NCBI GenBank assembly: GCA_017848965.1
Contig: JAFIHA010000036.1
Coordinates: forward strand, 1-64,000
Direction: 5' to 3'
DNA length: 64,000 bases
DNA from: Dechloromonas aromatica (nom. nud.)
Lineage (GTDB): Bacteria; Pseudomonadota; Gammaproteobacteria; Burkholderiales; Rhodocyclaceae
In this document: positions 10,438 to 28,023 of the stretch, piece after piece
How the letters are laid out: each line of letters begins with the position of its first letter
Position numbering within the stretch: position 1 is the first letter of the stretch
The notes under the pieces: model-generated
Told to the model about the DNA's origin: nothing
The model's database searches: none
The model's input: only the letters and a program-made list of their open reading frames with translations
Position numbers and translations under genes: made by a program

Positions 10438-10451
10438 TTGATGGAAATCAA
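10438..10451 (-). promoter_or_regulatory. FNR/Dnr-type operator
   Basis: TTGATGGAAATCAA is an exact match to the TTGAT-N4-ATCAA palindrome bound by FNR/ANR/Dnr regulators. Its centre lies about 64 bp upstream of the hemerythrin ATG, a normal activating distance from a start codon. It supports control of the four-gene run by anoxia or nitric oxide. Confidence 0.8.
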
Positions 10452-10894: not shown

Positions 10895-12955
10895 ATGTTT
10901 ACCTCTCCATCCGCCGAGCCGCTGGCCCACTCTGGCATCCGATTGACCTTTCTCGCGGCGCTGTGCCTGAGCCTCAGCGCCTGCCTGGGCAGTGACGACG
11001 ACGCCGGCGCTCTCCTGCCCGATGGCAGCACCGCCCAGCTAGCCATTCTGGAAACCACCGACCTGCACGCCAACCTCCTCAGCTACGACTATTTCAAGCT
11101 GGCCGAAGATAAAAGCCTGGGATTCGAGCGCACTGCCACCCTCATCAAGCAGGCGCGCACGGCGTTTCCCAACAACCTGCTGATCGACAACGGCGACACC
11201 ATCCAGGGCACGGCCCTGGCCGACTACCAGGCCCTGGTGACCCCGGTGGCCTGCAACCAGAAGCTGGCCACCTACAAGGCCATGGACACCATTGGCTTCG
11301 ACGCTGGCACTCTGGGCAACCATGAGTTCAACTACGGTCTGCCCTACCTGGCGCAGGTCACGGGAGCGAAGTTCAACGTGGATGGCATGGCAGCCGTGGC
11401 CAGCCAGCCCACCTGCACCGGTCCCGCTTTCCCGCTGGTGCTGGCCAATGTGACCAGCAAGAAGGACGGGCAGACGCTCTACAAGCCTTACACCCTCATC
11501 AGCAAGAAGGTGACCGGCAAAGACAAAGACGGCAAAGCCATCGAAAGCACCGTGAAAGTGGCGGTGATCGGCTTTGCCCCCCCGCCTATCCTGAACTGGG
11601 ACAAGCGCTGGCTGGATGGCAAGGTGGACGTGCAGGGAGTGGTCGAGGCTGCCCAAAAGTACGTGCCCCTGGCCCGCGCCGACGGAGCAGACATCGTCAT
11701 CGCTGCCTCGCATGGCGGCTGGGACACCAGCACCTACACCCCCACCATGGAAAATGCCAATTACCATTTGGCCAAGGTGGCTGGTATTGACGGCATCCTG
11801 ATGGGCCATTCGCACAGTGAATTCCCCAACGCCACCTGCACCACCGCAGCATGCGGCGCCGAGGGCGTGGACAAGATCAAGGGCAGCTTCTTTGGCGTAC
11901 CTGCCGTCATGCCCAGCTACTGGGGCAAGGCCATCGGCGTCATCAACTACAGCCTGGTTGTGAAAAACGGCAAATGGACCATCGACACCGGCAAAACCGA
12001 GGTCAGCGTGCGCAAAACCTTGCTCGATGCCACGGCCAAAACCTATGTCGAAGTTGACCCGGCCATTGGCAATGCCGTGAAAACCGAGCACGAGGCCGCC
12101 ATCACCTATGTGAAGACGCCCATAGGCCAGTCTGACTTCGCGCTGTCCAGCTACTTTGCCGATGTCGGTGACGTAACGGCCATTCAGGTGGTCAACGCCG
12201 CCCAGGCTGACTACGTGGCCAAATACGTCAGCGCCAATCTGCCGCAGTACAAAGACCTGCCGGTGCTGTCGGTGAGCGCCCCGTTCAAGAGCGGTTTTGC
12301 CGGTGGCACCGACTTCACCGACGTGGCCAAAGGCCCCATCGCCATCAATAACGCCGCCGACCTTTACCTGTACCCCAATACCGTCTACGCCGTGAAGGTG
12401 ACGGGTGCAGGCATCAAAACCTGGCTGGAGAAGGCGGCCGAGCGATTCAACCGCATCGATCCGACCTTGACCACCGCCCAGGCCCTGGTGTCCAGCTTCC
12501 CCGGCTACAACTTCGACATGTTCACCTCGGCTGACATCAGCTACGAGATCGACGTGACGCAGGCCATTGGCAGCCGCATCAAAAACCTGATGTACAAGGG
12601 CGCGCCCATCAATGCCACGGCCGAGTTCATCATCGCGACGAACAACTACCGCGCCACCAGTGGCACAGCCTTTGGTCTGACGGCGGCCAACACCATCTAT
12701 GCTTCGCCCGATGCCAACCGCGACGTGTTGATTGACTACATCAAGGCCCGCAATAACCTGACCCTGGCTGCCGACGGTTCTGCCCGCAGTTGGCGCTTCA
12801 CCAAGGTCGCCACGGCAGGCCCGGTGACCTTCACGTCAAGCAGCGACAAACTTGCTGTGGCTCAAGCTGCCGGGCTTGCCAACATCAGTCTGGTCAGCAA
12901 CGACAACGGCACCGGCAAAGGCCTGGGCGTTTACGCCATCGATCTGTCCAAATAG
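10895..12955 (+). CDS. Lipoprotein bifunctional metallophosphatase / 5'-nucleotidase
   Basis: A 686-residue envelope enzyme of the UshA/CpdB-like family. The signal peptide ends in a lipobox LSAC (Cys near residue 30). The metal-binding motifs appear in order: ETTDLHANL, DNGDTIQG, LGNHEFNYG, AASHGGW and GHSHSE. A C-terminal 5'-nucleotidase domain starts near residue 405. It should hydrolyse nucleotides or cyclic nucleotides outside the cytoplasm to release nucleoside and phosphate. The ATG follows a GGGAG ribosome site. Codon use is somewhat less GC-biased than its neighbours, which may mean a different history. The natural substrate cannot be decided from sequence. Confidence 0.9.
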   Translation: MFTSPSAEPLAHSGIRLTFLAALCLSLSACLGSDDDAGALLPDGSTAQLAILETTDLHANLLSYDYFKLAEDKSLGFERTATLIKQARTAFPNNLLIDNGDTIQGTALADYQALVTPVACNQKLATYKAMDTIGFDAGTLGNHEFNYGLPYLAQVTGAKFNVDGMAAVASQPTCTGPAFPLVLANVTSKKDGQTLYKPYTLISKKVTGKDKDGKAIESTVKVAVIGFAPPPILNWDKRWLDGKVDVQGVVEAAQKYVPLARADGADIVIAASHGGWDTSTYTPTMENANYHLAKVAGIDGILMGHSHSEFPNATCTTAACGAEGVDKIKGSFFGVPAVMPSYWGKAIGVINYSLVVKNGKWTIDTGKTEVSVRKTLLDATAKTYVEVDPAIGNAVKTEHEAAITYVKTPIGQSDFALSSYFADVGDVTAIQVVNAAQADYVAKYVSANLPQYKDLPVLSVSAPFKSGFAGGTDFTDVAKGPIAINNAADLYLYPNTVYAVKVTGAGIKTWLEKAAERFNRIDPTLTTAQALVSSFPGYNFDMFTSADISYEIDVTQAIGSRIKNLMYKGAPINATAEFIIATNNYRATSGTAFGLTAANTIYASPDANRDVLIDYIKARNNLTLAADGSARSWRFTKVATAGPVTFTSSSDKLAVAQAAGLANISLVSNDNGTGKGLGVYAIDLSK

Positions 12956-13411: not shown

Positions 13412-14745
13412 CTATTGATGATCGCTGAACTGGCGGGCGATGCTGCGGAACTCGTCTTCGATTTCCCGGAATACGGCGATCAGGTCCGGGTCGAAATGCT
13501 TGCCACTGCCTTCGAGGATGATGCCAACCGCCTTCTCGTGGCTGAAGGCCGGTTTGTAGACGCGCTTGCTGATCAGCGCGTCATAAACATCGGCCACCGC
13601 CATCAAGCGCGCCGACAGCGTAATGGCCTCGCCGACGAGGCCTTGCGGGTAGCAGCTGCCGTCCCATTTCTTCTGCTGCGCATGGGCGATCTCCCCGGCG
13701 ATGCGCAGGAAGCCGCCCTCGCCTGCTCGACAACACCGCCAGGCCAAAGAAGATGCGGATCAGGTAGTCGTCGAACTTGTCCAGCACCTCGGGGGAAAAC
13801 GCCTTCATGCCACCGGGCGGGGTCGCCCACAAGGTCACCCCGATCATCAGCAGCATGCGGCCCCAGATCAGGGTGAAGGTGGCGACGCGTTGCGCCGTCA
13901 GCCCGGAAACCTCGCACCACGACAAGCGGTTGAGCGCCGCGTGCACGGCGTCGCGATAGACCTCGGAGCAACTGCGTCCCTTCGGTTTGCAGACATCCTT
14001 GCAGTTCGGGTCGAGCGTGCAGCACAGCGAGCAGATATATTGACGCCGTGGTGCGGGCAGTAGGCCGAATCGGCCTCGGCGTAATGGTGTTCGCAGATGC
14101 CGCAGGCGACCAACGCGTTCGAGCGCTCCGGGAAGCTGCTGCGGCGCGCGATGTAGTACTTGCCCTTGGTGACGTAGGCGATCAGCGGGGCAAGGACGCT
14201 GTTCATCGCATCGAACAGGTCGAGTTCCATCAAGAGCAGCGCGATGGCGCAGTTGAAGACGAGCCAGACGACAAGCCCCGGGTGCGAGTGGGTGACGCAG
14301 GAAAAGAAGTTCGACCAGGCGAGCGAGCCGGCGTAGGCATTGGTGACATTGACCTTGAGTTCCGAGACGCAAACGAAGATGGCGCCGATCAATATGTAGC
14401 CGAGCCGCAGCGGCATGCCGAAATAGAGCTTGATCGCCTGCGCCATGATGGCGGTTTCGACGGCAAGGAAGATAAAGGTGAAGGAAGCGTAGATCAGCGA
14501 GGTGAAGGTCGAGCCGACGTAGCCGAAGCCGAAATCGAGCAGCAGCAGGGCGCCGATCGCTTCGCAGGAAAGCGCCGAGTTGCTGCCGATTATTGACGCT
14601 TGACCTTTTCAGCCGATGCCGTCGCCATTCCGCCCAGCTCCCGATGTCTAGCGGCGCATTCCTGATCGATGCGCTTGTGTTACGCAATGTTAGACGGATC
14701 TACTTGCCGATTGAAGAATGCTTCCGGCAATTTTTCGCATCGCCG
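13412..14745 (-). pseudogene. Multiply deleted copy of the permease-kinase / HD-GYP locus
   Basis: This segment aligns, block by block and in the same order, with 18055-23440. It contains the 5' flank and first 12 codons, a few permease helices, the Cys/His-rich segment, a last helix pair and then directly the final third of the HD-GYP protein. About 4 kb is missing through at least five internal deletions, including one of about 3.1 kb that removes all kinase domains. The frame stops at codon 13 (CGT CAA TAA) and there is a 2-base insertion at the Cys-rich segment (near 14038). Two deletion junctions fall on 8-bp repeats present in the intact copy. It cannot encode a functional sensor. Confidence 0.9.
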
Positions 14746-14857
14746 ACGGCGAGGGTGATTGCCGGCGCCGCCTTCGCACCAGCAGCACATGGCTTCGCTG
14801 GTGCCCGGATCGGCACCTTGGCTCCGATAGCCAAAACGACAACAAGCACCCGCTGTC

Positions 14858-15604
14858 TTATTGGCCGCGTTTACCGGCCCGTAAAATCTGGTCGGCGCGA
14901 ATCACGCGGTTGCGCCCTGTCCGCTTGGCCTCGTACATGGCTTCGTCGGCCTCGCTGTAGGCTGTTCTGAAATCGCCGCCAGCGGGCATCCAGCAAACTC
15001 CGAAGCTGGCAGTGATGCGGCTTGCATTGGGCAGGGAGAAATCATGGCCGGCGATTGCCAGGCGCATCCGTTCAGCGATCTGCTGCGCCTGTGCACAATC
15101 CTGCTGGGGCAGGATCACCGTGAATTCCTCGCCGCCCACCCGGCCGATCTCGCCGGGTGTCGCCAACGTCCGTCGCAGGCATTCGACCAGGCCACAGATC
15201 ACGGCATCGCCCACCGGATGGCCGAAGCTGTCGTTAATCTGCTTGAAGTGGTCGATGTCGAGCACGATCATCGCCATGTCGTGATTTTCCAGGAAGCGAT
15301 GGGCGCGCTCAATCACTGCCGCACGGTTTAGCGCGCCGGTCAGGGGATCGTGGGTAGCCCGGTATTCCAGCTCATTCGACAAATCGGTGAGTCGGTGGTT
15401 GAGCCGATTCATCTCGAGCTCCTGGCGATCGCTGTGACGAATCAGTCGGCGAGTTTGCCGCATCAGCTGGTCGAAGCTGTTGATGAGTTCGCCAAGAGCC
15501 GCGCGGTAGCTTGCGGCGTCGCCGGTTTCGACGTTGTACACGACACGCGCCGACAACAAGGCGTTGCTCTCCTGATCGAAAAGATCGGGATCTGGTTGAG
15601 ACAT
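14858..15604 (-). CDS. siaD: Diguanylate cyclase of the Sia operon (SiaD-like)
   Basis: A 248-residue cytosolic protein. An N-terminal helical region with coiled-coil character (about 30-85) leads into a GGDEF domain beginning ATHDPLTGALNR, with DIDHFKQINDSFGH and active site GGEEF. The RxxD product-inhibition motif expected just upstream is absent (the position reads TPGE). It should make c-di-GMP. It is last in a phosphatase-kinase-SiaC-cyclase run, the order of the Pseudomonas siaABCD operon, where unphosphorylated SiaC activates the cyclase. The ATG at 15604 has an AGGTG ribosome site; a GTG at 15613 directly after the siaC stop is an alternative. Confidence 0.85.
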   Translation of the reverse strand: MSQPDPDLFDQESNALLSARVVYNVETGDAASYRAALGELINSFDQLMRQTRRLIRHSDRQELEMNRLNHRLTDLSNELEYRATHDPLTGALNRAAVIERAHRFLENHDMAMIVLDIDHFKQINDSFGHPVGDAVICGLVECLRRTLATPGEIGRVGGEEFTVILPQQDCAQAQQIAERMRLAIAGHDFSLPNASRITASFGVCWMPAGGDFRTAYSEADEAMYEAKRTGRNRVIRADQILRAGKRGQ

Positions 15605-15613
15605 GGCAATCAC

Positions 15614-16003
15614 CTAGGCGGCTTTCACGGGACGATCGACGAAGGTGATCTCCGGGAAATCGACATGCAGTTCCTGGCCGAACTCGAAGATGGTGTCGTC
15701 TTCTTCGTAATGATGCCAGTTGAGTACAACTTCGTTGCCGGCGTCTACCGCAGTCTTGAACGCCTCGAAAATATTGAACAGCATCTTGGTGCTGGAACTG
15801 TTGAAGTAGGCGAGCCCGATGTCAACGTTGATGCAGATGTTGTTGCAGGAAGCCAGATATTCACGCAGGCGCTTGATGATATCGCCGTAAAAGGCAGCCG
15901 CATTCTCGGGATAGGACTCGCCACGGATGCTTAGCTGGTGCTGGGCAAAATCAAAATTCACTTCCGGTGAACTGGGGGTAGCAGCGATATACAAGTTTTC
16001 CAT
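15614..16003 (-). CDS. siaC: SiaC family regulatory phosphoprotein
   Basis: A 129-residue protein of the SiaC (DUF1987) family. The N-terminus MENLYIAATPSSPEVNFD, the RGESYPENAAAFY block and the centre LAYFNSSSTKMLFNIFE are the family signatures. Thr72 in SSSTK lies where the Pseudomonas protein is phosphorylated. In that system SiaB phosphorylates SiaC, SiaA removes the phosphate, and dephospho-SiaC binds and activates the SiaD cyclase. Here siaC lies between the siaB kinase gene (30 bp upstream) and the cyclase gene (9 bp downstream), so the same partner-switch is expected. The phosphosite is inferred by motif position. Confidence 0.88.
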   Translation of the reverse strand: MENLYIAATPSSPEVNFDFAQHQLSIRGESYPENAAAFYGDIIKRLREYLASCNNICINVDIGLAYFNSSSTKMLFNIFEAFKTAVDAGNEVVLNWHHYEEDDTIFEFGQELHVDFPEITFVDRPVKAA

Positions 16004-16033
16004 ACCAATTTCTCACGATTGTCATACCGGTAT

Positions 16034-16585
16034 TCAAATGGTGGCTTTCAGGTTGAATACCACTTTGCCCGAATGGCCTTCCAGAGGCTGGAAGTCGAAC
16101 TCCAGCGGTTCGCTTGAGTCGCGCGCCACGGTAAGGAAGCCCAGCCCCGCCCCCTTGCTGCCCTCGGGGCTCTCGGCGCGCAGCGAATCCTTGTAGGCGC
16201 GCTTGATTTCGTCCAGCGTCATGCTGCGCAGCGATTGCAGGCGCTCGCGCAGGCCTTCGGCAACCTCGGCATCGATCGGATTGGCGCACTGCAACAGGTA
16301 TTGTCCTTCCTTCTCGCTGATGCAGACCGAACCATGACGCAACTCATGGTTGTCTTGGTTGCTGGGGGTCAGCGAATCGGCCGAGTAGTGGATGATGTTC
16401 TGCGCCATCTCCACGAACGAAGAAAAAAGCTTGCGACGGGTCGCCCCGCTGACGCCGCTCATTTCCAGCTGTAACCTGACCGCGTCCGCCATCGCCGCCA
16501 CGACGTTCTGCGAAAAGTAACCGACGTAGTAGAAAATCACCCGTTGCTGGCAGGCAATCTCAAAAAAAGAGCCGAAGTCCTTCAT
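16034..16585 (-). CDS. siaB: SiaB family protein kinase
   Basis: A 183-residue protein with a GHKL-type ATP-binding fold. The N-box-like FVEMAQNIIHYS lies near residue 60 and a G-rich loop GSKGAGLGFLTVARDS near 145. This matches the SiaB (DUF6272) family of small Ser/Thr kinases that phosphorylate SiaC. Its ATG overlaps the stop of the PP2C gene by 4 bp (ATGA), so kinase and opposing phosphatase are made together. Cytosolic; no sensor domain of its own. Confidence 0.85.
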   Translation of the reverse strand: MKDFGSFFEIACQQRVIFYYVGYFSQNVVAAMADAVRLQLEMSGVSGATRRKLFSSFVEMAQNIIHYSADSLTPSNQDNHELRHGSVCISEKEGQYLLQCANPIDAEVAEGLRERLQSLRSMTLDEIKRAYKDSLRAESPEGSKGAGLGFLTVARDSSEPLEFDFQPLEGHSGKVVFNLKATI

Positions 16586-17853
16586 GAGGCTTGATTTGTC
16601 CGTTGCGCTTCCTGAACGCGGAAGCAGAAAAAGGTGACGTCATCGCGACGATGGTTCGGCCCCTGCCATTCGCTGATCGCCTGCTGTACGGCGCGGTTGA
16701 TCTCGCTGCTCGGTCGGTCGCGGTTGGCCAGGATGAGGTCGCGGATACGACGCTTGCCGAAGGCAATGGACTTGGGGCCGCCGACTTGGTCGACCAGACC
16801 GTCGGTGGTGACAAACACCAGGCTGCCAGCTTGCATCTGCACCGCCCGCTTCTGCCAGGTGAAATCCAGCTCGCTATCGACGTAGCCGACGCACTTGCGG
16901 TCGCCATCCACCATTTCCACCCCATCGCCACCGGGGTGCAGCACGAAGAGGCTGGTCTTGGCGCCGGCGAATATCAGCCGGCGGGTGGCGATGTCGTACC
17001 AGAAACAGGCGGCATCCATGCCGTCGTCCGATTCCGGGGTTTCATCCTGCCCGCCGACCTGTCCGAGCATCTGCTTGATGCCGCAGTTGACGCTGCCCAG
17101 CAACAGCGCCGGGTCAGCAGGGCCATGCTGGTCAATTGCCTGGGCCAGACAACTGGAAGCGATCAGCGTCATGAAGGCGCCGGGCACGCCGTGACCGGTA
17201 CAATCCGCGACGGCACCGAACCAGCCATCGCTGCGGGCAACGAAGTAGTAGAAATCGCCGCCGACGAGATCGCGCGGCTCCCAAACCAGATCGGCGTCCT
17301 CCAGTGTGTGCAGCATGGTGTCGCGCGAAGTACGCAACATGGAACGCTGAATCACGCTGGCGTATTCGATGCTCTGCATGATCTGGCGGTTGCGGGCTGC
17401 CTGCATGTCGGCCACCACCCGCATCAGTTGCAAACCGTGGCCGACGCCGGCGAAGCGGCCGCCGCGGGTGATGATGAAACCATCGGCCAGCGCCTTCTCG
17501 CCGTATTCCACCGCCTTGAAGGTCAACGACTCGATGTCCATGTCCGCCTCGACCACCAGCGGCTCCTTGTCCATAAAGGCAATGGAACTCTTGCGGCTGT
17601 ATACCTCCTTGCGGAACGGCTTGCTCATCTGCGACAGGAAGATGCCGCGGTTGATGAGGCCGATGGGGATACCATCCTCGATCACTGGCAGACTCGTCAG
17701 GTCGCGGTACTTGGAGAATATCTCCATGACCGTTTCATTGCTGTCTTCAGCCGTGACCGAGGGCGTCTGGATGCAGAGATCTTCGGCGGTCGGCTGCTGA
17801 GAGCGCGGACGACAATCGGCGGGGAGATGGGGGGATATTTCCAAGGCAAGCAT
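16582..17853 (-). CDS. CBS-domain PP2C (SpoIIE-type) phosphatase, SiaA counterpart
   Basis: A 423-residue cytosolic protein. A tandem CBS-like pair (about residues 30-150) contains TSLPVIEDGIPIGLINR and ADGFIITRGGRFAGVGHG. A short linker (AARNRQIMQSIEYASVIQR) precedes a PP2C/SpoIIE phosphatase domain with metal motifs DLVGGDFYYF, ADCTGHGVPGAFMT and a late RRDDVTFFCFRV. It is the first gene of the Sia-type operon and should dephosphorylate SiaC. In Pseudomonas, SiaA is membrane-bound with a periplasmic sensor and HAMP; here these are replaced by CBS domains, which usually bind adenine nucleotides. The signal is therefore probably intracellular. Start at 17853 has only a weak ribosome site. Confidence 0.85.
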   Translation of the reverse strand: MLALEISPHLPADCRPRSQQPTAEDLCIQTPSVTAEDSNETVMEIFSKYRDLTSLPVIEDGIPIGLINRGIFLSQMSKPFRKEVYSRKSSIAFMDKEPLVVEADMDIESLTFKAVEYGEKALADGFIITRGGRFAGVGHGLQLMRVVADMQAARNRQIMQSIEYASVIQRSMLRTSRDTMLHTLEDADLVWEPRDLVGGDFYYFVARSDGWFGAVADCTGHGVPGAFMTLIASSCLAQAIDQHGPADPALLLGSVNCGIKQMLGQVGGQDETPESDDGMDAACFWYDIATRRLIFAGAKTSLFVLHPGGDGVEMVDGDRKCVGYVDSELDFTWQKRAVQMQAGSLVFVTTDGLVDQVGGPKSIAFGKRRIRDLILANRDRPSSEINRAVQQAISEWQGPNHRRDDVTFFCFRVQEAQRTNQAS

Positions 17854-18057: not shown

Positions 18058-19155
18058 CTATTCGTGATCCTGGAACTGCCGGGCGATGGCGCGGAATTCG
18101 TCCTCGATTTCCCGGAAGGCGGCGATCAGTTCGGGGTCGAAATGCTTGCCACTGCCGTCGAGGATGATGGCGACCGCCTGTTCGTGGCTGAAGGCCGGCT
18201 TGTAGACGCGCTTGCTGATCAGCGCATCATAGACGTCGGCCACCGCCATCAGCCGCGCCGACAGCGGAATGGCTTCGCCAGCGAGGCCTAGCGGATAGCC
18301 GCTGCCGTCCCATTTCTCCTGGTGCGCATGGGCGATCTCGCCGGCGATGCGCAGGAAGCCGTCCTCGCCTTCGAGGTGCTGCTCGGCGCGGCGGATCGCT
18401 TCGAGGCCGAGCGTGGTGTGGGTCTTCATGATTTCGAATTCGGCGTCGTCGAGCTTGCCCGGCTTGAGCAGGATGTGGTCGGGGATGCCGACCTTGCCGA
18501 TGTCGTGCAGCGGCGCCGACTTGTAGAGCAGTTCGATGGTCAGCTCGTCGAGTGCGCCGGCGTATTTCGGGTTGCGCTGCAGGTGCCGGGCGAGCGCCCT
18601 GACGTAGCGCTGCGTGCGCAGGATGTGGTTGCCGGTCTCGTTGTCGCGGGTTTCCGCGAGCGAGGCCATGGCGATGATCGTCACGTCCTGGATGCGCTGC
18701 ACCTGGCGCGTGCGCTTCTGCACTTCCTGTTCCAGCCAGGCGTTCTGCTGCGCCAACTGGTCGCGGCTGCGCTTCAGGGCGACATGGGTATGGACGCGGG
18801 CGACCAGGATCAGCGGATTGATCGGCTTGCCGACGTAATCGACCGCACCGAGTTCGAAGCCGCGCCGCTCGTCCTCGGCTTCCGTGCGCGCAGTGAGGAA
18901 GATCACCGGGATGTCGGCCGTCGCGGGATCCTGCTTGAGCCGGGCGCAAACTTCGTAGCCATCCATCTCAGGCATCATGATGTCGAGCAGAATCAGCGCC
19001 GGCGAGGGCGACTGGGCGGCCAGTTCGAGCGCCTGCGGCCCGTTGGTGGCGACCCGCACCTTGTAGTCGTCCATCAGCAGCGCGCTGACCAGGCGCAGGT
19101 TTTCCGGGGTGTCGTCCACCACGAGAATGCTGGTCTTGACGGCATCACTGCTCAT
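18058..19155 (-). CDS. Response regulator with HD-GYP c-di-GMP phosphodiesterase domain
   Basis: A 365-residue protein. A receiver domain (about 7-125) has the phospho-acceptor Asp in ILLDIMMPEMDGYE and the conserved Lys in YVGKPINP. A coiled linker (QNAWLEQEVQKRTRQVQ) follows, then the HD-GYP domain with SAPLHDIGKVGIPD and KWDGSGYPLGL. It should break down c-di-GMP when phosphorylated. The ATG at 19155 lies 11 bp inside the end of the upstream permease-kinase gene, so that kinase, through its HPt domain, is the likely phosphodonor. The last third is duplicated in the remnant at 13412. Confidence 0.92.
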   Translation of the reverse strand: MSSDAVKTSILVVDDTPENLRLVSALLMDDYKVRVATNGPQALELAAQSPSPALILLDIMMPEMDGYEVCARLKQDPATADIPVIFLTARTEAEDERRGFELGAVDYVGKPINPLILVARVHTHVALKRSRDQLAQQNAWLEQEVQKRTRQVQRIQDVTIIAMASLAETRDNETGNHILRTQRYVRALARHLQRNPKYAGALDELTIELLYKSAPLHDIGKVGIPDHILLKPGKLDDAEFEIMKTHTTLGLEAIRRAEQHLEGEDGFLRIAGEIAHAHQEKWDGSGYPLGLAGEAIPLSARLMAVADVYDALISKRVYKPAFSHEQAVAIILDGSGKHFDPELIAAFREIEDEFRAIARQFQDHE

Positions 19156-22100
19156 GGCGCAGCCCTCCCTGAGTGGCATGAAGAATGTCCAGCGCGCTCC
19201 GGAACTCGTAGTCGCGGACGGCTTTCTCGAAAGCTTCGCCGGCGGCGCCCGGCAAGGCCGCGCGGATGGCGGCGAGATGATCGACCAGGTAATCGATCGC
19301 CGCGCCGTCCTGATCGGCGAGATAGCCGGCCAGCCGCGCGAGGATGGCGGCGGTTTCGCCGGAAGTCGACGGCGACGCGGCCGGCGCCTCGCCGGCCGGC
19401 ACCGGAACGCCCTGGCGGATCGCTTCGGCGAGGGCCGCCAGCGCGTCAAGGAAGCCGGCGAGCGCCGCCGTCGCCAGTTCGTCCTTGAGCAGCGCACTTT
19501 CCAGCTCGGCCGCCTGCTGGTGCAAGGCATCGGCGCCGAGGTTGCCGAGCACGCCTTTGAGGGTGTGCAGTTGGCGGGCGAGCTGCGTCTTGTTGGCGGC
19601 AGCGAGCGCGCCGCGCAACTGACCATCGTGTTCGGCCTGATGCTGCACGAACTGCAGCAGCATTTCCCGGTACAGCGCCGTTTTGCCGTTCACCCGCCGC
19701 AGGCCGACGACCACGTCGAGGCCGGCAATCGCCGGAAACACCGGCGCCGGCGCGGGCTGGCCGGCAGCGGGAAGCGGCGCGCCGGCGCCGGGCTGGGTAC
19801 CGGCGTAGCGGGCCCAGCGGGCAATGGTACGCAGGAAACTCGGCGGATCGATCGGCTTGCCGACGTGATCGACCATGCCGGCGTCGATGCAGCGTTGCCG
19901 CTCTTCCATCATCGCGTGCGCGGTCATGGCGACGATCGGCAGTTCGGCGAAGCGAGCGTCGGCACGCACCCGCCGGGTGGCCTCGATGCCGTCCATTTCC
20001 GGCATCTGCAGGTCCATCAGCACCAGGTGATAGGCGGGCGCCGTAGCGGCGCCCAGTATTTCCAGCACCTGCCGGCCGTTGTTGGCGACATCGACCGCCG
20101 CCCCGGCCTCCCGCATCAGCTCGATGGCAATCTGCTGGTTGATCGGGTTGTCTTCCGCCAGCAGGATGCGCAGTCCGTCGAGCATGCCGGTCGGCAACAG
20201 GGTGTCGTCTGCCGTCTGGTGCGTCTGACTGAGGAACTGCTCGGCGTCGAGCACCGGCAATGCGACGGCGAAGCTGAACTGTGAGCCGACGCCGGCGATG
20301 CTCTCGACCTTGATCTCGCCGCCCATTGCCTCGACGATGCGCTTGCTGATGGTGAGGCCGAGACCGGTGCCGCCGTATTTGCGGGTGGTCGAGCCGTCGG
20401 CCTGCGAAAATGGCTGGAACAGCTTGTCCAGTTGCGCCGGCGTCATGCCGATGCCGGTATCGCGCACGCAGAAGCGCAAGACCGCCTGCTCGCCGTGCAC
20501 TTCCTGCGGCGTGACGGCAATCTCGATGCGTCCGCGCTCGGTGAACTTGACCGCGTTGTTGGCGAGATTGATCAATACCTGCCCCAACCGCAGGGGGTCG
20601 CCAAGGAAATGGCCGGGCAGCGCCGGATCGACGCTGATCAGGAGTTCCAGCCCCTTTTCGGCGGCCCGCCCGCCGACCACGGTGCGCACCGATTCGCACA
20701 CCTCGGCGAGGGCGAACGCGACGCGCTCGAGTTCCAGCTTGCCGGCCTCGATCTTCGAGAAATCGAGAATGTCGTTGATGATGCGCAGCAGCGAGGTGGC
20801 GGCCAGGTTGGCCTTGGCGATGTAATCGCGCTGGCGGGCGTCGAGATCGGTTTTCAAGGCCAGGTGCGACATGCCGATGATGGCGTTCATCGGCGTGCGG
20901 ATTTCGTGGCTCATGTTGGCCAGGAAATCCGACTTCAGCCGCGTCGCCTCCAGCGCCACGTCGCGCGCTCGCGCCAGTTCCTCCTCGGCGCGCTTGCGCC
21001 GGCTGATGTCGCGGACGAAGGAACTGAAGGTGTAGCTGTCGCCGACCTTGACCGGCCAGATCGACAGTTCGACGTCGATGATGCCCTTGTCCCGGGTCAG
21101 CGCGGTGATTTCGATCCGCTGGTTGACCAGGCTGCCCTGGCCGGTCTCGGCGAAGCGGCGCACACCGGCTTCGTGCATTTCCCGATAGGGCTCGGGGACG
21201 ATCAACTGGCTCATCTTCTGGCCGATGGCTTCGTCGCGCCGCCAGCCGAAAATCTGTTCCGCCGCCGGGTTCCAGTCCACGATCATGCTCTGCGCATCGA
21301 TCGTGATCACCGCATCGTTCGCCGTATCGAGCAGCATGCGCGTGCGTTCGGCGGCGCGCGCCAGTTCCGCCGAGGCCGCTTCGGCGCTTTCCTTGGCGCT
21401 GCGCAATTCGTCTTCGGCCCGATTGCGGCTCTCCTCGGAGAGCGTGATCCACCACGTGGCGATGCTCGACAACACCGCCAGGCCGAAAAAGATGCGGATC
21501 AGGTAGTCGTCGAATTTGTCCAGCACCTCGGGGGAAAACGCCTTCATCCCGCCGGGCAGCGTCGCCCACAGCGTGATGACGATCATCAGCAGCATGAAGC
21601 CCCAGATCAGCGTGAAGGTGGCGACGCGTTGCGCCGTCAGCCCGGAAACCTCGCGCCACGACAGGCGGTTGAGCGCCGCGTGCACGGCGTCGCGATAGAC
21701 CTCGGCCCAACTGCGCCCCTTCGGTTTGCAGACATCCTTGCAATTCGGATCGAGCGTGCAGCACAGCGAGCAGATGTTGACCCCGTGGTGCGGACAGTAG
21801 GCCGAATCGGCCTCGGCGTAATGGTGTTCGCAGACGCCGCAGGCGACCAGCGCGTTCGAGCGCTCCGGGAAACTGCTGCGACGCGCGATGTAATACTTGC
21901 CCTTGGTGACGTAGGCAATCAGCGGAGCGAGGACGAAGGCGAGCGCCGCCGCGATCAGCCAGGAATAGGCCTGCGCGTAGTCGCCCAGCACGCCGCTGAA
22001 GGCGATGGTGGAGACGATCGAGGCCACCGTCATGCTGAGCACGCCGACCGGGTTGAAGTTGTACAGGTGGGCGCGCTTGAATTCGACCAGCGGTGGGCTG

Positions 22101-23329
22101 AGGCCGAGCGGCTTGTTGATCGACAGATCGGCGACCACGGCGCAGACCCAGGCGACGGCGATGTTCGAATAGAGGCCGAGGACGCTGTTCATCGCCTCGA
22201 ACAGGTCGAGTTCCATCAAGAGCAGCGCGATGGCGCAATTGAAGATCAGCCAGACAACGCGCCCGGGATGCGAGTGGGTGACGCGGGAAAAGAAGTTCGA
22301 CCAGGCGAGCGAGCCGGCGTAGGCATTGGTGACATTGACCTTGAGTTCCGAGACGCAGACGAAGATGGCGCCGATCAGCAGCGCCGTTTCCGGATTGTCG
22401 ATGGCGTAGCGGAAGGCGGTGTTGAAGATCTGGATCGGTTCCTTGGCATCGGCGACGGCGACGCCGGCGAGCACCGCGACGGCGGCGAGCAGCATGCCGC
22501 CGAGCTGTTTGAGGAAGGCGATGACGATCCAGCCGGGGCCGCCGAGCAGCATGTTGAACCACCAGCCGACGCGGTTGCCGCGTTCGCGCTCGGGCATGAA
22601 GCGCAGGTAGTCGACCTGCTCGCCGATCTGGGCGATCAGCGCAAAGGAGATCCCGGCGGCGATGCCGAAATGGTAGGGATCGAAGCCGTTGCTCTTCGAC
22701 ACCTCGCCGGCGAAGCGGGTCATCGCCGCGAGCGCCGCCGGCTCGCGCGTCAGCACGTAATAGAAGGGCACCGCGAGCAGGATCAGCCACAGCGGCTGGG
22801 TCCATTGGTGGAAACGGTTGATCGCGGTGACGCCGTAATAGACGACGGGAATCACCACCACCGTGCACACGATGTAGCCGAGCCACAACGACATGCCGAA
22901 ATAGAGCTTGATCGCCTGCGCCATGATGGCGGTTTCGACGGCGAGGAAGATGAAGGTGAAGGAGGCGTAGATCAGCGAGGTGAAGGTCGAACCGACGTAG
23001 CCGAAGCCGGCGGCGCGCGTCAGCAGGTCCATGTCGATGTTGTGGCGCGCCGAATACTGGCAGATCGGCAGGCCGGCGACGAAGATCATGATGCCGGCGA
23101 AGATCAGCGCCCAGATCGCGTTGGCGAAGCCGAAATCGAGCAGCAGCAGGGCACCGATCGCCTCGTAGGAAAGCGCCGAGTTGGTGCCGATCATGGTGTT
23201 GCCGATCACCGACGGCGACCACTTGCGAAAACTCGCCGGCGAATAGCGCAACGCGTAGTCCTCGATCGACTCCGTCGCCACCCAGCGATTGTATTGACGC
23301 TTGACCTTTTCAGCCGATGCCGTCGCCAT
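19145..23329 (-). CDS. NCS1-type permease fused to hybrid histidine kinase with HPt
   Basis: A 1394-residue multi-domain membrane sensor. Residues ~25-475 form a 12-helix transporter of the purine/cytosine permease (NCS1) type, with WSPSVIGNTMIGTNSALSYE at helix 1. A Cys/His-rich segment (497-534; CGVC, HH, CPHH, CSLCC, then two more Cys) is followed by two more helices (~570-625). A PAS domain (~660-780) precedes HisKA with His808 (NMSHEIRTP), an ATPase domain (DTGIGMT, GGTGLGLTIS), a receiver with Asp1106 (LMDLQMPEMDG) and an HPt with His1255 (QLHTLKGVLGN). It probably senses or transports a nucleobase-like ligand and relays phosphate to the overlapping HD-GYP regulator. Ligand is inference. 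Confidence 0.88.
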   Translation of the reverse strand: MATASAEKVKRQYNRWVATESIEDYALRYSPASFRKWSPSVIGNTMIGTNSALSYEAIGALLLLDFGFANAIWALIFAGIMIFVAGLPICQYSARHNIDMDLLTRAAGFGYVGSTFTSLIYASFTFIFLAVETAIMAQAIKLYFGMSLWLGYIVCTVVVIPVVYYGVTAINRFHQWTQPLWLILLAVPFYYVLTREPAALAAMTRFAGEVSKSNGFDPYHFGIAAGISFALIAQIGEQVDYLRFMPERERGNRVGWWFNMLLGGPGWIVIAFLKQLGGMLLAAVAVLAGVAVADAKEPIQIFNTAFRYAIDNPETALLIGAIFVCVSELKVNVTNAYAGSLAWSNFFSRVTHSHPGRVVWLIFNCAIALLLMELDLFEAMNSVLGLYSNIAVAWVCAVVADLSINKPLGLSPPLVEFKRAHLYNFNPVGVLSMTVASIVSTIAFSGVLGDYAQAYSWLIAAALAFVLAPLIAYVTKGKYYIARRSSFPERSNALVACGVCEHHYAEADSAYCPHHGVNICSLCCTLDPNCKDVCKPKGRSWAEVYRDAVHAALNRLSWREVSGLTAQRVATFTLIWGFMLLMIVITLWATLPGGMKAFSPEVLDKFDDYLIRIFFGLAVLSSIATWWITLSEESRNRAEDELRSAKESAEAASAELARAAERTRMLLDTANDAVITIDAQSMIVDWNPAAEQIFGWRRDEAIGQKMSQLIVPEPYREMHEAGVRRFAETGQGSLVNQRIEITALTRDKGIIDVELSIWPVKVGDSYTFSSFVRDISRRKRAEEELARARDVALEATRLKSDFLANMSHEIRTPMNAIIGMSHLALKTDLDARQRDYIAKANLAATSLLRIINDILDFSKIEAGKLELERVAFALAEVCESVRTVVGGRAAEKGLELLISVDPALPGHFLGDPLRLGQVLINLANNAVKFTERGRIEIAVTPQEVHGEQAVLRFCVRDTGIGMTPAQLDKLFQPFSQADGSTTRKYGGTGLGLTISKRIVEAMGGEIKVESIAGVGSQFSFAVALPVLDAEQFLSQTHQTADDTLLPTGMLDGLRILLAEDNPINQQIAIELMREAGAAVDVANNGRQVLEILGAATAPAYHLVLMDLQMPEMDGIEATRRVRADARFAELPIVAMTAHAMMEERQRCIDAGMVDHVGKPIDPPSFLRTIARWARYAGTQPGAGAPLPAAGQPAPAPVFPAIAGLDVVVGLRRVNGKTALYREMLLQFVQHQAEHDGQLRGALAAANKTQLARQLHTLKGVLGNLGADALHQQAAELESALLKDELATAALAGFLDALAALAEAIRQGVPVPAGEAPAASPSTSGETAAILARLAGYLADQDGAAIDYLVDHLAAIRAALPGAAGEAFEKAVRDYEFRSALDILHATQGGLRHEQ

Positions 23330-23463: not shown

Positions 23464-24204
23464 TCAGCCGCCGATCACGCCGACCGGCAAGGCGTCGAAC
23501 CAGTGGATGAAGCGCTGCACGTCGGCGCCGCGGTAGATGGCGCCGTGCTGCGGGCAGAGGAAGTCGATGTCGAGCCCGGCGACGCGTTCGCACCAGCGGC
23601 GCTTGGCCTCGTTGGACCCCATCCAGCGCTGGTGAAAGGCTTCGGCGTAGCGGATATGGGCATCGAAATCCTCGACGAAGAGCCCGTCCTGGCCGGCCGG
23701 CAGGAGCGCCGCACCGACGTCGCCGGAGAACAGGATCTTCGCCTTGCGGTCGTAGAGATGGAAGTTGCCGGAGGCATGCAGGTAATGCGCCGGTACCGCC
23801 TGCAGCGGCAGACCGCCGAGGGATATTTCCATGCCGGCGTCGGGAATCGGCACGAAGGTCTCCGGCGCGCCGCCGAAGTGCGGGATGAAGCCAGCCCACA
23901 GCCAACTGACATAGCAGCGCATGCCGGGGTTGAATTCCAGCCACAGCGCCAGCGACGAACAAATGTCGGGGTCCTGGTGCGAGGCGAAGACGGCGGTCAG
24001 CGCGGAAGGATCGAATTCGCCGGCGAGCGCCGAGAAGACGGCGGGAAAGATTTCGGCGCCACCGGGATCGAGCAGCATGCCCTGGCCACCGTGGCTGACC
24101 AGGTATTCGTTGGTGTCGATCAGATGCCCCGGCCGCTCCGGATCGCGCACGATGGCCACCCATTTGTGGTCACCATCCTGGAAAATGGTACTGGTTTTCT
24201 TCAC
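23464..24204 (-). CDS. ODP-like di-iron MBL-fold protein (O2-sensor type)
   Basis: A 246-residue metallo-beta-lactamase-fold protein. Metal-binding motifs are ASHQDPDICSS (HxDxD), PAHYLHASGNFHLY, LFSGDVGAALLP and CPQHGAIYRG. The HxDxD rather than HxHxDH form, and the layout, match the oxygen-binding di-iron protein (ODP) and flavodiiron core group, without a flavodoxin domain. In Treponema an ODP works with a cytosolic chemoreceptor as oxygen sensor. Here the gene lies 15 bp after one encoding a chemoreceptor-tip-like protein, so a sensor pair is plausible. An NO/O2 reductase role is the alternative. Start ATG at 24204 gives the complete domain. Confidence 0.78.
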   Translation of the reverse strand: MKKTSTIFQDGDHKWVAIVRDPERPGHLIDTNEYLVSHGGQGMLLDPGGAEIFPAVFSALAGEFDPSALTAVFASHQDPDICSSLALWLEFNPGMRCYVSWLWAGFIPHFGGAPETFVPIPDAGMEISLGGLPLQAVPAHYLHASGNFHLYDRKAKILFSGDVGAALLPAGQDGLFVEDFDAHIRYAEAFHQRWMGSNEAKRRWCERVAGLDIDFLCPQHGAIYRGADVQRFIHWFDALPVGVIGG

Positions 24205-24219: not shown

Positions 24220-24834
24220 TTAATTGTTCTTGAAAAAATCCGAACGCTGCAGCGCCTGCAGCGAATTGCGTATTTCCTCGACGACGCCGTCGAATTCGCC
24301 GGAAACCTGAGTCAGCGCCCCGGCAAACCCCTGACCGTAAGCCGCCTCGATCTTCGCCGACTTGGCCAGCACGCCGCCCAGCTCGACCAACTGGAAAGCG
24401 TCTTCGAGCGCCCGCTGCAACTGTCGGCGCAAGCTCGCCAGATGCTGCTGGTGTTCGGCGTTGGCCCGTTCGCGCCGGCTCACCAGTTGATCCAGCTGGC
24501 GCGCCGGAACAGCGGCGACGGCGGCGCGCAGCAGCCGGGTGTTGCGGATGTCCTGGAGGACGACCGAGACGTCGCGCACGCCGGCGTGGATGTGTGCGGT
24601 CAGCGTCTGCATCTGCGTCCGCAGGTCCTGCGAGAAGACGCGCAACTCGTTGGAGAGGACGCCGAAGCCGCGCGCGTTGATGCCGGCGCGCTTGGCCAGG
24701 AAGATGGCGTTGAGCGCCATCAGGTTGATGCGAAAGGCAACGGCGACGACGGCCTTGACCTCCTCGTTGATGCGGACGATGCGCCGCAGGTCTTCGCCGG
24801 CTGCGGCACCGGCCGTCCGCACCAGCGCCGTCAT
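24220..24834 (-). CDS. Short cytosolic chemoreceptor-tip-like protein
   Basis: A 204-residue, almost fully helical protein without membrane segments. Residues ~35-75 read FRINLMALNAIFLAKRAGIN and then RGFGVLSNELRVFSQDL. This resembles the hairpin tip of methyl-accepting chemotaxis proteins (typical core NLLALNAAIEAARAGE then GRGFAVVADEVR), with the central Glu positions replaced. The rest is coiled-coil. The ATG overlaps the phaC stop by 4 bp. It may be a truncated or decoupled signalling coiled-coil working with the neighbouring ODP-like protein, or a chemoreceptor-derived scaffold. No methylation sites or ligand domain were recognised. Confidence 0.65.
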   Translation of the reverse strand: MTALVRTAGAAAGEDLRRIVRINEEVKAVVAVAFRINLMALNAIFLAKRAGINARGFGVLSNELRVFSQDLRTQMQTLTAHIHAGVRDVSVVLQDIRNTRLLRAAVAAVPARQLDQLVSRRERANAEHQQHLASLRRQLQRALEDAFQLVELGGVLAKSAKIEAAYGQGFAGALTQVSGEFDGVVEEIRNSLQALQRSDFFKNN

Positions 24835-26579
24835 TTCTCGAGCACGTAGGTGCCGGGCGCGTCGGCCAGCGCCGGGAATTTGCGGTTGGCCACCGGGTAG
24901 GCGTCGACCAGTTCGCCGGTACGCTCGCCGAGCCAGGCGGTCCAGTCCTGCCACCAGGTGCCGGGCTTCTTGTCAGCGCGGTCAAGCCAGTGTTCCCAGT
25001 GCTCGTTGCGTTCCGGTTCGGCGATCCAGTAGGCGCGCTTGGGCGGATTGACCGGCGGATTGACGATGCCGAGGATGTGTCCGGAGGTGGACAGCGCGAA
25101 GCGCATCGGCGCCTGGACGTTGATGTACTTGCGGATGCGGTAGCACTGCTTCCACGGCGCGATGTGGTCGTCCTCGGCGGTCACCGCGTAGAGCGGCTGG
25201 ACGATGCGATCGAGGTCGATCGGCTCGCCGGCGATGCTCAGCTTGCCGCGCTTGATCAGGTTGTTGTTGAGGTACATCTCGCGCAAGTAGTAGGAATGCA
25301 TCGCCGCCGGCATGCGCGTCGTATCGCAGTTCCAGAACAGCACGTCGAAAGGCGGCAGCGGTTCGCCGAGCAGGTAGCTGTTGACCCAGTACTGCCAGAC
25401 CAGGCTGTTCGAACGCAGCAGGCGGAAGGAGGTGGCCATTTCGGCGCCGTCGAGATAGCCGCGCTTGGCCATCTTCTCTTCCAGCGCGCCGACGCAGGCG
25501 TCGTCGATGAAGACGTCGATGTCGCCGGGGTGCGCGAAGTCGGTCAGCGTGGTGAACAGCGTCCAGTGGGCGACCGGCATCTGCTCGGCGGCGAAACGCT
25601 TGTTGGCCCAGGCCATGTAGGTGCTGACCAGGGTGCCGCCGATGCAGTAGCCGACCAGATGGACCTGCGGCACCTTGCAGAATTCGCTGGCGACGCGCAC
25701 CACTTCATTGACGCCTTCGAGCAGGTAATCGTCGAAACGGACGTCGTGCATCTCGGCGTCCGGGTTCTTCCAGCTGGTGATGAAAACCGAAAAACCCTGG
25801 TCGGTCAGGTACTTGACCAGGCTCTTCCTGGCGTTCAGGTCGAGGATGTAGAACTTGTTGATCCACGGCGTGACGATGACGATGGGCATCGCCCGCACCT
25901 TCTCGGTGGTCGGCGTGTAGTGAATCAGCTCGACCAGACGGTTGCGGAAAACCACCTTGCCCGGCGTCGTCGCCAGGTCCTTGCCGACGGTGAAGGCGTC
26001 GGGCTCGACCATCTGGATGTTCTTCGCCTTGACGTCGCGCTGAAAGTTGGCCCAGCCACGGCGCAGGCTGTCGCCCTGAGTGGCGACGGCGCGCTCGATG
26101 GCGACCGGGTTGGTCCAGAAGAAATTGGTCGGCGCCACCATGTTCAGCCACTTGCGCGACCAGAACGCCGCCCGCCGCCGTTCCTTGTCCGACATGCCGG
26201 GGGTTTCGAAGAGCATGTCCTGCAGACGGTGGGTGAAGGCGAGATACCACTCCTTGACGATGTCCCAGGACGCCGAATCGCTCCATACCGGCGCCGTGAA
26301 GCGGGCGTCGTCGGCATGCGGCTGGATCACGTCGGCGGACGCAATGCCGAGCGCCCGCCGGGCAACGTGCGCCTGCAACGCGAACAGGTCGGCGGAGAGC
26401 GCGTTGACCGCGCGCGTCAGTTCCTGCGGATGCATCAGCCACGCCATCTGCGCGTTGAGCAGCGAGGTGGTCGCCCCGAAGGGATCGATCGCCTTGCTCA
26501 CTGCCTTGCCGACCGTCTCGACCGGGCTCAACCCGTCGAGGTCGATACTGCGTTCTTGTGTTGCCGGATTGCCTGACAT
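24831..26579 (-). CDS. phaC: Poly(3-hydroxyalkanoate) synthase, class I
   Basis: A 582-residue cytosolic polymerase that joins hydroxyacyl-CoA units into PHA granules. It has the N-terminal PhaC domain (WNFQ-like region around residues 70-190), the alpha/beta-hydrolase core with lipase-like box GYCIGG carrying nucleophile Cys312, and downstream VTAEDDHIAPW (Asp) and LSTSGHILGIVNPP (His) completing the triad. Length is as for class I enzymes, and no PhaE or PhaR gene is nearby. The start at 26579 follows a GGGAGAA ribosome site. It lies 31 bp downstream of a beta-CASP MBL gene and overlaps the receptor-like gene. Confidence 0.95.
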   Translation of the reverse strand: MSGNPATQERSIDLDGLSPVETVGKAVSKAIDPFGATTSLLNAQMAWLMHPQELTRAVNALSADLFALQAHVARRALGIASADVIQPHADDARFTAPVWSDSASWDIVKEWYLAFTHRLQDMLFETPGMSDKERRRAAFWSRKWLNMVAPTNFFWTNPVAIERAVATQGDSLRRGWANFQRDVKAKNIQMVEPDAFTVGKDLATTPGKVVFRNRLVELIHYTPTTEKVRAMPIVIVTPWINKFYILDLNARKSLVKYLTDQGFSVFITSWKNPDAEMHDVRFDDYLLEGVNEVVRVASEFCKVPQVHLVGYCIGGTLVSTYMAWANKRFAAEQMPVAHWTLFTTLTDFAHPGDIDVFIDDACVGALEEKMAKRGYLDGAEMATSFRLLRSNSLVWQYWVNSYLLGEPLPPFDVLFWNCDTTRMPAAMHSYYLREMYLNNNLIKRGKLSIAGEPIDLDRIVQPLYAVTAEDDHIAPWKQCYRIRKYINVQAPMRFALSTSGHILGIVNPPVNPPKRAYWIAEPERNEHWEHWLDRADKKPGTWWQDWTAWLGERTGELVDAYPVANRKFPALADAPGTYVLEK

Positions 26580-26610
26580 GGGATTCTCCCTGATATCTTC
26601 AGATTCGATC

Positions 26611-28023
26611 TTACAGCGTGACGAAGCTGTTCGCCTGCGGCAGATGCACCTCCCGCCAGCCGAAACGGGCGCGGATGGCGTCAGCGAAGGCCTGCGACGC
26701 CGAACTTTCGCCATGCACCACGAACAGCTTGCCGGGCGCCTTGTGAAAACCGGCCAGCCAGTCGAGCAGCGCCGCCTGGTCGGCATGCGCGGAAAGGCCG
26801 CCGACCGTGCAGATCTTCGCCTTGACCGACACCGTTTCGCCGAAGATGCGGACCAGCTTCGCGCCGTCGACCAGGCGTCGACCGAGCGTACCGGCCGCCT
26901 GGAAACCGGCGATCAACACCGTCGATTCGTGACGGCCCAGGTTCTCGCGCAGGTGGTACTTGATCCGTCCGGCGTCGCACATGCCGCTCGCCGAGATGAT
27001 CACCGCGCCGTGGCGGATGTCGTTCAACTGGCGTGAACGTTCGACGTCGGCGACGAACTCGATGTCCATCTTGTGCGGATGCGCCTGCTGCCAGGCGATC
27101 AGTTCGCGGGTCGGGGCATCGAGCAGGTGGCTGTGTTCGAGCGTGATGCGGGTGGCCGAATTGGCCATCGGCGAATCGACGAAGACCTTCATCGCCGGCA
27201 AGCGGCCGCGCCGCACCAGGTCGGTGAGGATGAAAAGAATCTCCTGGGTACGCCCGACGGCGAAGGCCGGAATGACGATGTTGCCGCCGGCGGCGCGGGT
27301 GCGCGCGAAGGCGTTGACGATCTCTTCCTCGGTTTCGGCGAGCGAGCGATGCAGGCGGTTGCCGTAGGTCGATTCGATGAGCAGCGCGTCGGCGCTTGCC
27401 GGCGCTGGCGCCGGGTCGTTGAGCACCGGCCGGCCGGGCATGCCGAGGTCGCCGGAGAAGACCAGCCGGCGGCTGCGGCCGCCGCTGGCGACGGTCACTT
27501 CGAGCGAGGCCGAGCCGAGGATGTGGCCGGCATCGCGGAAGCGCACGCCGATGCCGGCCAGCGGCGCGAAGCTTTCATCGTAGGGCACCGGGCGCAGCAG
27601 CTTGAGCGCCGCCTGGGCCTGCATCACCGTGTATAGCGGCGGCAGGATGCCGCGCTCGCTGCGCCCCCGGCGATGGCGGTTGCGCAGTTGCCACTCGGCT
27701 TCCTTTTCCTGGATGTGCGCCGCGTCCGGCAGCAGCACTTCGAGCAGCGAGATGGTCGCCGGCGTGGTATACACCGGGCCGCGGAAGCCGAGCATCGCCA
27801 AGCGCGGCAAGAGGCCGGAATGATCGATGTGGGCATGGGTGAGGAGCACGAAGTCGAGGCGCCGCACGTCGAAACCGAAGGACAGTGCCCGTTCGTTCTT
27901 GGCGCGTGCCTCGGCGCCGCCCTGAAACATGCCGCAATCGACCAGAAAACGCGCTTCCCCGGTATCGACCAGGGTGCAGGAACCGGTCACTTCGCCAGCG
28001 GCACCGAAAAAGCCAAGTCGCAT
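26611..28023 (-). CDS. MBL-fold beta-CASP RNase-type protein
   Basis: A 470-residue protein of the metallo-beta-lactamase/beta-CASP group. Motifs include MRLGFFGAAGEVTGSCTLV, LLTHAHIDHSG (motif 2), DAGHILGSAS, VFSGDLGMPGRP, a beta-CASP insert, and the C-terminal SAHADQAALLDWL and VVHGESSA. Related proteins are RNA exo/endonucleases of the YSH1/CPSF type; many bacterial members have no demonstrated substrate. ATG at 28023 was preferred because it begins the conserved N-terminus. It is the first gene of the run leading to phaC, divergent from uspA. Confidence 0.88.
   Translation of the reverse strand: MRLGFFGAAGEVTGSCTLVDTGEARFLVDCGMFQGGAEARAKNERALSFGFDVRRLDFVLLTHAHIDHSGLLPRLAMLGFRGPVYTTPATISLLEVLLPDAAHIQEKEAEWQLRNRHRRGRSERGILPPLYTVMQAQAALKLLRPVPYDESFAPLAGIGVRFRDAGHILGSASLEVTVASGGRSRRLVFSGDLGMPGRPVLNDPAPAPASADALLIESTYGNRLHRSLAETEEEIVNAFARTRAAGGNIVIPAFAVGRTQEILFILTDLVRRGRLPAMKVFVDSPMANSATRITLEHSHLLDAPTRELIAWQQAHPHKMDIEFVADVERSRQLNDIRHGAVIISASGMCDAGRIKYHLRENLGRHESTVLIAGFQAAGTLGRRLVDGAKLVRIFGETVSVKAKICTVGGLSAHADQAALLDWLAGFHKAPGKLFVVHGESSASQAFADAIRARFGWREVHLPQANSFVTL

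Follow-up and report, generated by a model that had tools for sequence, protein, structure and literature searches.

A gene in the 64,000-nucleotide stretch of the Dechloromonas aromatica genome analyzed here (contig JAFIHA010000036.1; hereafter, the window) encodes an NCS1-type permease, a module with eight cysteine residues, and a hybrid histidine kinase as a single polypeptide, and is overlapped by the gene of a response regulator with an HD-GYP domain, predicted to degrade cyclic di-GMP (c-di-GMP). The fused transporter–kinase gene was confirmed to be real, and it is not an assembly fusion since close homologues share the same arrangement. It belongs to a widespread and apparently undescribed family whose association with urea and amide genes is very strong. 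What stands out as unusual is the branch of the window, in which a histidine phosphotransfer (HPt) domain is found together with the HD-GYP partner.

With some reserve, we favor the reading of the window protein as a transceptor-type kinase. The amino-terminal permease would bind, and perhaps transport, urea or a formamide-like short amide, and its conformational state would be relayed to the kinase via the cytosolic eight-Cys module and a hairpin of two helices. Phosphate is predicted to pass from H808 to D1106, to H1255 of the HPt domain, and on to the receiver of the HD-GYP product, which would hydrolyze c-di-GMP. The likely outcome would be a fall in c-di-GMP when the nitrogen source is present, freeing cells from sessile growth.

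Domain organization and NCS1 identity

The preliminary description of this DNA had proposed a full phosphorelay kinase, and this was borne out by Pfam. The matches to PAS, HisKA (residues 799–863), HATPase_c (residues 910–1023), Response_reg, and Hpt were all above the cut-off, and together with the phospho-acceptor residues they identify a hybrid kinase with HPt (Table 1). The ATG of the HD-GYP gene lies within the last codons of the kinase gene (11 bp overlap), and its product contains a receiver as well as the HD and GYP motifs of its class, from which its activity is predicted. A pair of hydrophobic helices at residues ∼563–631, absent from the preliminary description, was spotted by eye and not with a transmembrane predictor.

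Table 1. Features of the fused kinase gene and its partner, with residue numbers of the kinase and positions in the window.
Feature	Position	Strand	Basis
Whole fused sensor kinase, 1394 amino acids	19145..23329	-	Frame open from ATG to stop at these exact bounds
NCS1-like permease, residues 1–487	21869..23329	-	Profile match to NCS1, relative over Pfam cut-off, signature residues
Eight-Cys module, residues 494–536	21722..21850	-	Alignment, profile search of 185 genomes, no Pfam family
Two extra hydrophobic helices, residues ∼563–631, then long helix before PAS	21437..21643	-	By eye, weak model
PAS domain, residues 662–774	21008..21346	-	Pfam
Histidine kinase core, residues 799–1023, phospho-acceptor H808	20261..20935	-	Pfam, alignment
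Receiver domain, residues 1055–1167, phospho-acceptor D1106	19829..20167	-	Pfam, alignment
HPt domain, residues 1222–1306, H1255	19412..19666	-	Pfam, alignment
Response regulator with HD-GYP c-di-GMP phosphodiesterase domain	18058..19155	-	Pfam, HD and GYP motifs

The permease segment itself gave no match to the Pfam NCS1 family (PF02133, Transp_cyt_pur) even up to an E-value of 10, and phmmer against the PDB returned nothing meaningful (best E-value 0.54, two short SH3-type matches). The NCS1 assignment of the preliminary description was thus not recovered by direct search, but it held at the level of profiles. A stand-alone relative, L025, which is 44% identical to the window permease across 486 residues, passed the PF02133 cut-off (E-value 8.7e-8, 31.8 bits against 23.5). 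When 27 fused permeases were combined into a profile and compared by hhalign with nine canonical NCS1 proteins, the match reached 99.2% (E-value 1.1e-19, 415 columns), as against only 9% with 17 SSS rows, one of which (L122) may be in the wrong frame; the corresponding values against SSS were 76% for canonical NCS1 and 35% for stand-alone family members. The permease is therefore placed as an outlying NCS1 branch and not as a CbrA-type SSS domain, SSS membership being ruled out by these values in a LeuT-fold comparison that covered NCS1 and SSS. A further profile (A1) matched the cytosine permease CodB (7qoa) and the hydantoin permease Mhp1 over ∼400 residues. This match was not used alone because four of the rows in A1, those of L025 and of three canonical permeases, exceed the Pfam NCS1 cut-off and a fused-only profile (A5) gave no match to any PDB chain. 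The null result with A5 counts against the favored reading, as does the low predicted local distance difference test score (pLDDT, 44.9) of a structure model of residues 1–646 built from 10 rows. No fold conclusion was drawn from this model, in which the blocks of the extra helix pair come out helical with a local pLDDT of ∼46–70.

The internal cysteine segment noted earlier was also found to be genuine. Its eight Cys residues (497, 500, 512, 520, 523, 524, 530, and 534) were invariant in 14/14 alignment rows, and a motif scan detected the pattern in every fused member spanning the region, save L049. When a profile of the module was searched against 185 genomes, matches were obtained in 12, all of them at family loci except for a gene at a contig end in G038 and fragments of a degraded copy of the window's own kinase; the module is confined to this family in the genomes searched. 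It matched no Pfam family at an E-value of 0.08 or better, and the linker gave no Pfam match above cut-off in a Pfam copy whose content of a STAC model was unchecked. A likeness to classical zinc fingers (best E-value 0.0046, over 20 residues only and with no Pfam family) was taken as chance. The module is probably metal-binding. Its invariance might be taken to mean that the Cys module is the main sensor, of metal or redox state, and the permease merely a membrane scaffold; this is very improbable, as the pocket residues of the permease are equally invariant and the neighboring genes indicate a nitrogen substrate (see below).

Distribution of the family and its association with urea and amide genes

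In a class-level sample of 369 genomes, 21 had a match, of which 17 were retained after setting aside G120, G192, and G055 (canonical NCS1 only) and G038 (partial, at a contig end); one of the 17, G279, has only a stand-alone permease. In a phylum-level sample of 398 genomes, 56 had a match, leaving ∼52 without the four short partials (G637, G526, G545, and G586). A plasmid and chromid collection, in which some records are whole chromosomes judging by their length, yielded 528 matching records, 342 of them from Klebsiella, and in 507 the match extended over 80% or more of the query of 646 residues. The typical member has ∼1130 amino acids in the order permease–Cys–kinase–receiver. A Pfam scan of four ordinary members (L002, L013, L014, and L048) showed no PAS and no Hpt, and the phylum loci checked had a kinase match in 29/29 and a GGDEF match in 0/29. 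The window protein shares the defining features of the family, i.e., the permease signature residues and the eight-Cys module. The architecture had been called unusual in the preliminary description; this does not apply to the basic arrangement, found in ∼52 of the 398 phylum genomes, and does apply to the branch with HPt and HD-GYP. The NCS1–kinase family was not described in the literature searched (among the matches listed, including the best 20 of 50 and the best 20 of 307, with subscription papers mostly outside).

Several family members are annotated next to genes for urea or amide uptake and hydrolysis. The urtABCDE–fmdA genes lie beside or divergent from the family gene in Burkholderia, Paraburkholderia, and Klebsiella, urt genes in Roseomonas and Thioclava, urease in Mitsuaria, and formamidase in Methylovirgula. 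Annotated stand-alone permeases have a formamidase neighbor in Tsukamurella and a urease neighbor in Acinetobacter lwoffii, the loci with a stand-alone permease beside urease being L051 and L075 and those with one beside formamidase L050, L062, and L047. No urea/amide cluster was seen at the loci of Sinorhizobium (L052, with a lone UrtA match) or Azospirillum (L053). It was also observed that Klebsiella plasmids carry an ordinary member together with urtABCDE and formamidase, an example being the conjugative L049, whose Cys stretch misses the motif pattern. At two loci, a fused kinase has in its vicinity a stand-alone permease that shares its Cys tail, L062 (6411–9989, minus strand, and 10093–11943, plus strand) and L047 (8920–12435 and 13541–15307, both plus strand); these pairs look as if they combine one sensor with one transporter.

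The association was assessed with a marker rule that called for at least three Urt proteins, or FmdA, UreC, or UreA, with thresholds on identity and coverage. In the first set, this was satisfied at 10/19 class loci and at 0/20 control loci around other hybrid kinases in the genomes of that set (14/16 genomes represented, one locus of only 3.9 kb), among which L095 had a lone UrtA match. With the rule unchanged, 39/40 loci were positive in a second set, consisting of one locus per genome from 40 of the 52 phylum genomes, chosen blind to neighbors and spanning 31 genera, with eight loci from one genus; the sole miss, L201, is an 11.3-kb stretch cut by a contig end. A LuxR-type or Mitsuaria-type regulator with a full-length match was present at 36/40 second-set loci vs. 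0/20 controls. The Fisher p values (1.5e-4 for the first set and 5e-15 for the second) are not literal because the rows are not independent and the controls were drawn from the genomes of the first set. Eleven plasmid loci, 9/11 of them positive, were hand-picked partly after looking and were not counted as a test. On these neighborhood counts, urea or short amides are the best-supported input, and we consider them the likely ligand at the level of the family; for the window gene itself, the same ligand is proposed with moderate confidence.

Seven residues of the permease, E132, Q234, E237, Q238, K330, N332, and N335, were identical in 27/27 family rows of A1, a set that contains the window protein as well as L025 and L032, both stand-alone. 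The same positions were mixed in the three canonical NCS1 rows; L027, however, has E132, K330, and N335. The latter (L027/L076), a 497-amino-acid NCS1 permease with ∼25% identity, had no urea marker within its 17.8-kb stretch. Presumably E132 lies in transmembrane helix (TM) 3, Q234, E237, and Q238 in TM6, and K330, N332, and N335 in TM8. The preliminary description had raised whether the substrate-contact residues of NCS1 transporters are kept. In what we take to be the numbering of Mhp1, the invariant N335 aligns with the TM8 Asn N318, but the substrate Trp W117 falls at F128 of the window (A1-based alignment), Gln121 at E132, and one of two Na+-site Ser/Thr of TM8 (312/313) at K330, where two alignments differ by one residue. 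The presumed Na+-site Ser/Thr is thus not kept in the window permease, and, in an alignment possibly off by one, the motif scan shows Lys at the position in 43/49 rows, with a few genes represented by two rows. The six rows without the exact pattern are L047 (which reads KINVTNSY), one cut fragment, and four canonical NCS1 rows representing three proteins, among which L027 likewise has Lys at this position. K330 at the Na+ site suggests that binding or transport could be Na+-independent.

These data bear on the nucleobase-like solute put forward in the preliminary description. A sensor of nucleobases or hydantoin-type compounds is suggested by the NCS1 relatives with structures, CodB and Mhp1, to which the match was made partly via canonical rows; the fused-only profile, however, reaches neither structure, and what we take to be W117 and the Na+-site Ser/Thr of Mhp1 correspond to F128 and an invariant Lys. 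The same permease, fused or stand-alone, is mostly found beside urt, ure, or fmdA genes, as the 39/40 positive loci illustrate. A nucleobase or hydantoin ligand is accordingly quite unlikely, and the proposal of such a solute is retained as no more than a weak rival to urea or a short amide.

The window branch and its c-di-GMP output

Nine close relatives, 75–84% identical over the permease, grouped with the window protein at a support of 100. Their identity to it is 70–81% over residues 1–646 and 57–71% over the full length. H808, D1106, and H1255 were aligned in 8/8 full-length proteins of the subgroup, the window counted; the remaining two relatives are incomplete, the open frame of L040 stopping after 636 amino acids and L045 being cut by a contig end. 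Within the subgroup, the PAS domain is confined to the window and Leeia oryzae (L044). An HD-GYP regulator (59–79% identity) adjoins the kinase in the window and in 7/9 relatives, upstream in six and downstream, as in the window, in Leeia oryzae, vs. 1/20 control loci at the same threshold (L083). The HD-GYP partner named in the preliminary description is therefore a conserved one. As the HPt is invariant and the HD-GYP gene mostly adjacent, the two go together in the window branch, and its c-di-GMP output is well supported.

The nearest outsiders of the subgroup in the tree were L057 and L058 (support 98), followed by stand-alone permeases linked to urea or formamide (85; 97 with L059 added). 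The tree was a quick one with Shimodaira–Hasegawa-like approximate likelihood ratio (SH-aLRT) support only, and its root is unsure since the branches of the canonical outgroup are very long. L057 combines permease, Cys module, PAS, GGDEF, and EAL in one chain of 1219 amino acids (7352–11008, minus strand), so that c-di-GMP output takes two forms in neighboring branches, the direct fusion of L057 and the HPt/HD-GYP route of the window. We tentatively suggest that the permease with its eight Cys may be a portable urea/amide receptor that was recruited for c-di-GMP turnover on at least two occasions, in the window branch via an HPt phosphorelay leading to HD-GYP and in L057 via the PAS–GGDEF–EAL fusion, an idea for which the odds appear slightly short of even. 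If true, a small nitrogen compound would set the sessile/motile switch without a transcription step.

Several observations weigh against extending the urea/amide input to the window gene and against a fixed HD-GYP partnership. The nine subgroup loci were all without a urea/amide marker (within ∼9 kb; some stretches are short, 6.7–17.6 kb), and the first 30 kb of the window likewise contained none. Of the nine misses among the class loci, three (L057, L058, and L063) are full 20-kb stretches and the others are shorter, four measuring 5.7–15.7 kb and the remaining two 16.6 and 18 kb; of L057–L059, the nearest outsiders of the window, L057 and L058 are thus without a urea marker. Throughout the subgroup, TM1 contains a distinct stretch, TMIGTNSALSYEAIG, and the ligand may have changed there. 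In the genome of the window, urease (UreC, 77%) and a UrtA homologue (44%) are encoded on other contigs, and there is a second, ordinary family member (G000:C63:3653-7183, L060) with 51% identity to the window protein. At L039 and L041, i.e., 2/9 subgroup loci, no adjoining HD-GYP gene was seen; the open reading frames scanned encode FtsK, FtsX-like, and ABC proteins and one without a match beside L039, and a LysR regulator and one without a match beside L041.

The same genome had no FmdA match and also has a canonical NCS1 permease. Downstream of the ordinary member on C63 lies a regulator that shares 56% identity with its urease-linked counterpart in Mitsuaria; that member could serve the urea genes, and the window copy could be free for c-di-GMP control. 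Taken further, the subgroup may have abandoned urea/amide sensing altogether, its permease being a receptor for another small solute devoted to c-di-GMP control. The lack of urea markers at 9/9 subgroup loci and in the window, the long stem branch of the subgroup (0.57), the distinct TM1, and the ordinary second member point in this direction, whereas all seven family signature residues are retained; we consider such a change of solute rather unlikely, though deserving of serious weight. Retention of the signature residues is consistent with the favored reading of a urea/short-amide sensor acting on c-di-GMP.

Surroundings of the gene and comparison with known systems

A degraded second copy of the kinase and HD-GYP unit lies at 13412–14801 (minus strand). 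It consists of the 3′ end of the HD-GYP gene (88%) followed by kinase residues 465–623, 318–384, 101–153, and 46–71, also keeps the region around the start codon together with DNA upstream of it, and has a DNA identity of 82–94%, with large stretches missing between the pieces. That the locus as a whole is decaying or functionless, as this copy might suggest, is scarcely credible, given that catalytic motifs are present in the main copy, which is intact and is conserved in relatives to the extent given above. Downstream of the HD-GYP gene, at 14858–17853 (minus strand), is a Sia-like set comprising a CBS–SpoIIE phosphatase with a match to the SiaA carboxy-terminus below the cut-off, a SiaC-like protein also below the cut-off, a SiaB-family kinase above the NCBIfam cut-off, and, at the SiaD position, a ∼250-amino-acid diguanylate cyclase with a GGEEF motif. 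A c-di-GMP-making module thus adjoins a c-di-GMP-breaking one. As neither SiaB nor SiaC was matched in the nine relatives (at 30% identity and half length), the Sia-like genes were regarded as mere neighbors and not as part of the system. Upstream of the kinase lie genes for a weakly matching flavorubredoxin-type protein (23464–24204, minus strand) and a PhaC-type polyhydroxyalkanoate synthase (24831–26786, minus strand).

The analysis defines, by sequence and context, a family of putative transporter-derived sensors of urea and short amides in soil, plant-associated, and clinical bacteria. Proteins whose annotation reads no more than "ATP-binding protein" or "hybrid sensor histidine kinase" thereby gain a concrete ligand hypothesis. 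Members with transcriptional output, HD-GYP output, or a direct GGDEF–EAL fusion, along with the stand-alone permease, form a matched series suited to comparing how the transporter is coupled to its output.

With CodB and Mhp1, the window permease shares profile-level homology over ∼400 residues and the TM8 Asn, which we take to be N318 in Mhp1; it differs from them in having Lys at the presumed Na+ site, Glu at the presumed Gln121 position, and a fused Cys tail. A transporter joined to a histidine kinase has several precedents. In the SLC5-STAC kinases CbrA, CrbS, and RpuS, as presented in the accessible parts of the reports, the connection is made via a soluble cytosolic module and the input is a nutrient (PMC13022988, PMC9100948, PMC7096432, PMC5715377). 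The window protein resembles them in this respect, but has an NCS1 transporter, a linker of eight Cys and a helix pair, and an HD-GYP partner. The ammonium sensor kinase Ks-Amt5 is likewise an uptake-transporter fold turned into a sensor of a nitrogen compound, with the kinase joined without a PAS, HAMP, or STAC linker (PMC5764959). Unlike Ks-Amt5, which has the Amt fold and for which the accessible part of that report mentions no receiver or HPt, the window protein has an NCS1-type permease together with both domains. A protein of Dechloromonas aromatica, VIMSS583663 (1131 amino acids), appears just as "histidine kinase" beside a CheY-like receiver and UrtA in Table 4 of a report available in part (PMC2907700); its length and neighbors fit an ordinary family member, a likeness by description and not by sequence. 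In another report, whose strict definition of a transceptor excludes CbrA, an S-component fold is claimed to be the first such case in prokaryotes (PMC11109136). Judging from its sequence, the window protein would belong to the known kind of transporter–kinase, among which an NCS1 version with HPt and HD-GYP appears to be new.

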